Made by a program: the position numbers and the translations under genes. 64,000 bases of DNA from Halorussus gelatinilyticus (lineage in GTDB: Archaea; Halobacteriota; Halobacteria; Halobacteriales; Haladaptataceae), in contig NZ_CP096658.1 in the NCBI RefSeq assembly GCF_023238445.1, positions 434,001-498,000 of the forward strand. Direction: 5' to 3'. A model generated the notes under the pieces. The model made no database searches. It was not told the DNA's origin and was given only the letters and a program-made list of their open reading frames with translations. Below, in pieces: positions 56,297 through 56,916 of this stretch (position 1 is the first letter of the stretch; the number at the start of each line of letters is the position of its first letter).

Positions 56297-56466
56297 CGCG
56301 GTCTTCTCGTTCTTCCTGTTCGGCCCCCCAAGTTTCTGCGACCGGAGGAAACGCTCCCCTCTTTTCTTATTCCGTCGAATACCCGGGCGTTAGGCCTTCT
56401 CTGGAGTCAAGTCGGAGACGAGAAACTATCGACGCCGCGAAAAGGTCGCCAGACTTATCAGTCCGG

Positions 56467-56502
56467 GTGTAAAATGGACTTTACGTAAGGTGTCCTTTAC
56501 AC
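56467..56502. promoter_or_regulatory. 36-bp imperfect palindrome, candidate operator
   Basis: Outer arms GTGTAAA (56467-56473) and TTTACAC (56496-56502) and the central palindrome TTACGTAA (56481-56488) share one centre between 56484 and 56485. Arms are perfect at 7 and 8 bp; the sequence between is only partly symmetric. It lies 27 nt upstream of the next ATG and downstream of a TATA-like cttatcag (~56453), so a bound protein would cover the start site. No regulator gene is adjacent. Confidence 0.6.
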
Positions 56503-56529
56503 TCGCGGCACCAACCTACGTGACCACTC

Positions 56530-56781
56530 ATGACATCGAAATCGTTCCCGCGGCTTCGACGGCTTTGCAACACCCTCCCGAAGACGAGCTACGACCGGGA
56601 TTTCGAATCGCTGTCGGCCCTCCAGCAACTCCTGACGGTCGTCGCGACGGCCGTCGTCGTTCTCACGATTCCACCCCTGCTCGTCGAATCGCCGGAGGCG
56701 GAGAGCACGGTAGGCGTCTCGCTCGCGGTCGGGGTCCTCTACAGCCTCGCGAACCTGCTCGCTCGGTACAACCGAAGATAA
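56530..56781 (+). CDS. Small membrane protein (83 aa) behind a palindromic operator
   Basis: The N-terminus is basic with MTSKSFPRLRRLCNTLPKTS, then two hydrophobic segments: LLTVVATAVVVLTIPPLLV (~33-51) and VGVSLAVGVLYSLANLLA (~61-78), with a RYNRR end. I do not recognise the family. The 36-bp palindrome just upstream implies tight control by an unlinked DNA-binding protein. The gene is monocistronic. Confidence 0.65.
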   Translation: MTSKSFPRLRRLCNTLPKTSYDRDFESLSALQQLLTVVATAVVVLTIPPLLVESPEAESTVGVSLAVGVLYSLANLLARYNRR

Positions 56782-56916
56782 CGCGACCGGCCAAAACGAC
56801 GACCGGTGTCGGAATCGACCGCACTCTCGGTATCGGTTCCCCCGCGGGACCGACCGTGCCGGAGGCTCCCACACACTCATACGCCTCGACACCCTATCGG
56901 AACGAGTGAGAATCCC

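Follow-up and report, generated by a model that had tools for sequence, protein, structure and literature searches.

A tandem-dyad site upstream of a small membrane protein in Halorussus gelatinilyticus is a probable operator of a CylR2-like regulator encoded in trans

We analysed a palindromic element located upstream of an 83-aa open reading frame (ORF) in a 64,000-nucleotide stretch of the Halorussus gelatinilyticus genome (hereafter the window). Judging from its sequence and that of its relatives, the element is very probably a real control site. We consider it likely that a CylR2-like HTH_3 repressor, whose gene lies in trans ~134 kb away, uses it as an operator and has the 83-aa protein among its targets. 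The features on which this reading is built are the following (window positions, unless a contig is given):

56451..56460, + strand: weak TATA-like box AGACTTATCA, a tentative counterpart of AGA-N-TTAAGT by comparison with 40 promoters, outside the profile match
56467..56502, no strand assigned: whole 36-bp array, outer ends GTG...CAC
56469..56484, + strand: operator dyad 1 GTAAAATGGACTTTAC (putative), GTAAA-N6-TTTAC, 11 of 12 fixed consensus positions
56485..56500, + strand: operator dyad 2 GTAAGGTGTCCTTTAC (putative), abutting dyad 1 at a 16-bp step, 11 of 12 fixed consensus positions
56530..56781, + strand: 83-aa ORF, two predicted transmembrane (TM) helices, hydrophobic at about residues 27-53 and 59-79
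G000:C1:624796-624996: HTH_3 regulator gene (70 aa), ~134 kb from the window site and just downstream of a DUF2178-like membrane gene

A tandem pair of dyads in the window

The first-pass annotation had described the element as a nested 36-bp palindrome overlapping the expected transcription start of an 83-aa two-TM protein. The arms are all there and share one centre (GTGTAAA at 56467-56473, TTACGTAA at 56481-56488 and TTTACAC at 56496-56502), and the ORF at 56530-56781 on the + strand does carry two hydrophobic segments. As a plain palindrome, however, the site is unexceptional, with 26 of 36 positions matching, a value that is equalled or exceeded elsewhere in the window and is reached by shuffled sequence. 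A better reading of the site is a pair of directly adjoining 16-bp dyads with the unit consensus GTAAAG-N4-CTTTAC, and it is as a tandem pair that it becomes significant, since only ~7e-7 such pairs are expected by chance per genome (first-order Markov, 3.67 Mb). Could the palindrome be a chance feature of a low-GC promoter, with no regulator involved? Several other palindromes in the window do match just as well, but the low expectation for the tandem dyads and the conservation of the motif throughout the order, against a control near zero (see below), make this explanation highly improbable; the pairing of arrays with a regulator gene and the profile matches in the genome, both described below, already contradict it.

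The surroundings of the dyads follow a recurrent plan. Aligned array promoters share a common layout, in which AGA-N-TTAAGT is followed by a short spacer and by GTAAAG-N4-CTTTAC-T-GTAAAG-N4-CTTTAC; in almost every promoter the dyads begin ~10 bp past the TATA-like box, and the first GTAAA mostly lies 34-72 nt from the start codon. In the window the first GTAAA is at 56469 and the ATG at +61, which is the usual distance, and the profile score favours the + strand, which leads to the 83-aa ORF, over the - strand. The TATA-like box is poorer and lies ~2 bp further upstream than usual, and the dyads are set at a 16-bp step instead of the usual 17 bp. Archaeal transcription normally begins ~25 nt downstream of the TATA box. 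The predicted start would therefore fall inside the array (in the window, near 56478-56485), and a protein bound to the array should block initiation.

Other copies in the genome and a candidate regulator

Scanning the genome with GTAAR-N6-YTTAC returned exact tandem pairs at three places only, namely C1:490469-490500 (the window), C1:625450-625482 and C1:3430157-3430189, the latter two each with a third, imperfect unit. One-mismatch single dyads are as frequent in this genome as those of the reversed control (52 vs 54), so that only tandem arrays are informative. A 54-position profile, made from 39 array promoters with the window and the 3.43-Mb site left out, recovered these three loci and no others in the genome, with 21 bits for the window and 46.8 and 51.5 bits for the other two; within the window, profile R1 (built without the window) also placed the pair at 21 bits, with an E-value of 1.4e-5. 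Further copies in the genome, for which the first-pass annotation had suggested a search, are thus present as two additional tandem arrays, found by pattern and profile scans alike, which answers the first half of its refuting condition. Of the three copies, that of the window scores lowest; it also has two units instead of three, a 16-bp step and a poorer TATA-like box, and all of this weighs against the operator reading.

The 3.43-Mb array lies in front of a gene for a DUF3887-alpha/beta-hydrolase lipoprotein, while the 625-kb array is found just upstream of an operon encoding a 139-aa four-helix DUF2178-like membrane protein and a 70-aa HTH_3 protein. The latter matches PF01381 (5.7e-18), and its closest solved relatives are the PbsX-family regulator 9k3w and the CylR2 structures 2xiu and 1utx (3e-14 and 9e-13, respectively, with the single sequence; 1e-20 and 8e-19 with a profile). 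It is a short single-domain HTH_3 protein (~66 aa is typical of the family) that aligns over its full length with CylR2, and in this sense we call it CylR2-like. Its recognition region, VTRQTINAIERERYDPS, shows almost no variation. The designation of the membrane protein is looser: the 139-aa protein scores 17.3 with the DUF2178 model (PF09946), below the Pfam gathering cut-off of 22.8, which is exceeded by the array-linked membrane proteins of loci L019 (31.7) and L074 (26.9).

The first-pass annotation had pointed out that no regulator gene is adjacent to the site, and in the window there is indeed none of the type described here. A different HTH protein might bind the window site, its resemblance to the arrays being convergent or secondary. 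The missing third unit and the departure from the 17-bp step would be in keeping with this, and the genome contains 37 first-look HTH candidates, of which 15 were scored. Nonetheless, only one HTH of the DUF2178-linked subfamily was found in the genome, the profile finds three sites there only, and a two-unit array with a 16-bp step also precedes a DUF2178/HTH operon in another genome (G123, which has no 17-bp-step array). We therefore judge a different binding protein improbable and retain the 70-aa HTH protein as the candidate regulator.

Co-occurrence of array and regulator

The tandem array was searched for throughout the order with a 17-bp-step pattern; of 392 genomes, 173 carry it and one matches the reversed control pattern. 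The HTH, detected with a profile built from the HTH genes beside arrays, is present in 223 of the 392, including all 173 that carry arrays. Fifty genomes thus have the HTH only, 169 have neither and none has the array alone (Fisher p ~1e-65, although the genomes are related and the counts are therefore not independent). At the level of the genus, the three genomes that lack the HTH are the same three that lack arrays. To check this independently, we retrieved 80 named loci with the HTH protein as the sole criterion, making no use of the DNA motif; tandem dyads were present within the retrieved DNA in 57 of them. In the order-wide search, the co-occurrence of arrays with the HTH, read directly from the sequences, is complete.

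Genomes that possess the HTH but no 17-bp-step array may represent operator variants or losses. The 16-bp-step array of G123 is one such case, and at the Haladaptatus loci L223 and L224 the HTH is present and no tandem dyad was found. Among the HTH-selected loci, several from Methanolobus and Methanohalophilus have a single dyad at a matching distance. These single dyads suggest that the operator either predates the haloarchaea or was transferred. At L231, L234, L235 and L241 (Methanolobus, Methanohalophilus and a Euryarchaeota MAG), HTH relatives of ~60% identity are accompanied by one GTAAA-N6-TTTAC dyad ~430 bp upstream of the HTH gene. Four contigs of the IMG/VR viral collection (L127-L130) also contain an exact match to the tandem array pattern.

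Genes behind the arrays

Membrane proteins are the main targets. A DUF2178-like gene stands behind the array in 37 of 52 loci and is then nearly always followed by the HTH gene; 36 of the 52 have both genes, the membrane gene being immediately followed by that for the HTH. These membrane proteins mostly have four helices and 130-150 aa, unlike the 83-aa type. The DUF3887-alpha/beta-hydrolase lipoprotein is array-led at nine places (our genome included), an ABC ATPase at four, and other array-led genes encode a CPBP/Rce1-like protease, a beta-lactamase-like protein and a 78-aa hydrophobic protein. In Halobacterium salinarum DSM 3754 a single cluster holds, in this order, the DUF2178-like gene, the HTH gene, an array, an ABC ATPase and a permease, and in genome G010 the DUF2178/HTH pair adjoins ABC genes. 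The window site shares what defines this regulon, that is, tandem GTAAAG-N4-CTTTAC dyads in a promoter region of a genome that has the HTH. The earlier proposal of a trans-acting regulon of small membrane proteins is thus strongly supported as far as a trans-encoded regulator with other sites is concerned, but was too narrow regarding the targets, which include ABC transporters, a lipoprotein hydrolase, a CPBP/Rce1-like protease and a beta-lactamase-like protein.

The 83-aa ORF

No homologue of the 83-aa protein was detected in 28 genomes of the family, in a species-genome scan or in the 392 genomes of the order; the best per-genome E-value among the 392 (0.0016) is noise, and none of the nine matches that were fetched had tandem dyads nearby. 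The ORF lies between mptA (GTP cyclohydrolase) and a gene for a small zinc-finger protein, in an interval (56297-56916 in the window) that ranges from 83 to 677 bp among the measurable Halorussus congeners (loci L026-L043). The congeners gave no sign of a conserved cassette at this position, and their mptA/zinc-finger interval contains no tandem dyad. Given the lack of matches elsewhere and the variable length of the interval, the ORF looks like a lineage-specific insertion. The interval is a small insertion hot spot, with unrelated inserts such as an ORF for another hydrophobic protein at L029.

Is the ORF a gene at all? The operator might be real and the ORF not, in which case the segment would be a decayed duplicate of a DUF2178/HTH operon promoter whose array now drives nothing useful, or a non-coding RNA. 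The coding signal of the ORF is weak (0.16 bit/codon vs 0.55-0.77 for reference genes), its GC3 is lower and it lacks homologues, and the off-consensus 16-bp step and weak TATA-like box of the site would also fit decay, as would a hint of DUF2178 ancestry: the best match of the DUF2178 HMM in the segment reads in the same frame as the ORF and covers the last two helices, at a non-significant E of 0.06 for six sequences. On the other hand, of the six frames this one alone scores positively for coding, and it encodes two clear TM segments; the start codon is at the usual +61 from the array (most others +34 to +72), and both dyads keep 11 of 12 consensus positions, so the site itself is not decayed. 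Moreover, profile-profile comparison (hhalign) shows no relation between the 83-aa protein and DUF2178, and the ORF has no match to PF09946; descent of the protein from DUF2178 is accordingly not upheld. On balance we find a decayed duplicate rather unlikely, albeit a serious alternative, and take the ORF to be a probable, though unproven, gene. A single-sequence AlphaFold model depicts a helical hairpin at low confidence (pLDDT 62), too weak for a fold search.

Discussion

In the mechanism that we propose, dimers of the repressor would occupy the GTAAAG-N4-CTTTAC dyads, which closely follow the TATA-like box and cover the expected start, and would block transcription instead of activating it. 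The array before the repressor's own operon would provide autoregulation. The membrane partner might relay an envelope or extracellular signal that relieves repression, an idea borrowed from CylR1/CylR2, and distal targets would respond jointly once repression is lifted. In H. gelatinilyticus, one such distal target would be the 83-aa two-TM protein, if expressed.

In Enterococcus faecalis, CylR2 acts as a repressor that binds the promoter it controls; induction by an extracellular peptide requires CylR1, a suspected membrane protein, through a route still unknown (PMC3709268). The haloarchaeal 65-74-aa HTH_3 proteins resemble CylR2 over its length and are likewise encoded together with a multi-TM membrane protein, and the array sites lie in the promoter, as does the site of CylR2. 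The system described here differs in that it is archaeal, its membrane partner is a four-helix DUF2178-like protein, and its sites are tandem 16-bp dyads with 17- or 16-bp steps; its targets comprise the pair itself, ABC exporters, a lipoprotein hydrolase, a CPBP protease and small membrane proteins. No cytolysin or lantibiotic operon was recognised in the array-linked contexts that we read, so the module may be said to work like CylR1/CylR2, not to be it. By analogy, the haloarchaeal pair could be a sensor/repressor module, with the window ORF as a distal target.

Food for speculation comes from the array-controlled genes. CPBP/Rce1-like and ABC-exporter modules are often linked to bacteriocin immunity, and genes of both kinds stand behind arrays; no bacteriocin or peptide gene was identified in our loci, so immunity is an analogy only. 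It is conceivable, and we advance it tentatively as a doubtful generalisation, that haloarchaea at large use this module to sense antimicrobials or the state of the envelope. A DUF2178-like membrane sensor would control a CylR2-like repressor, and the tandem operator that they have in common would place exporters, a membrane protease, a lipoprotein hydrolase and a group of fast-evolving small membrane proteins under its command; the 83-aa protein would then be a species-specific protective addition.

The searchable literature contained no mention of DUF2178 and no description of the operator or of haloarchaeal CylR2-like regulators; subscription journals are mostly outside it, and earlier work may exist. 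The operator, its likely regulator and the regulon are now defined, and they recur in ~44% of the sampled genomes of the order. Halobacterium salinarum and several Haloferax species are among the carriers, and single dyads extend the range to methanogens. For a family of membrane proteins so far uncharacterised, this provides a testable sensor/repressor hypothesis, and the window offers a case in which an orphan small protein may join a regulon by acquiring its operator. The cluster of Halobacterium salinarum DSM 3754 (L169) would be a convenient laboratory version of the system.
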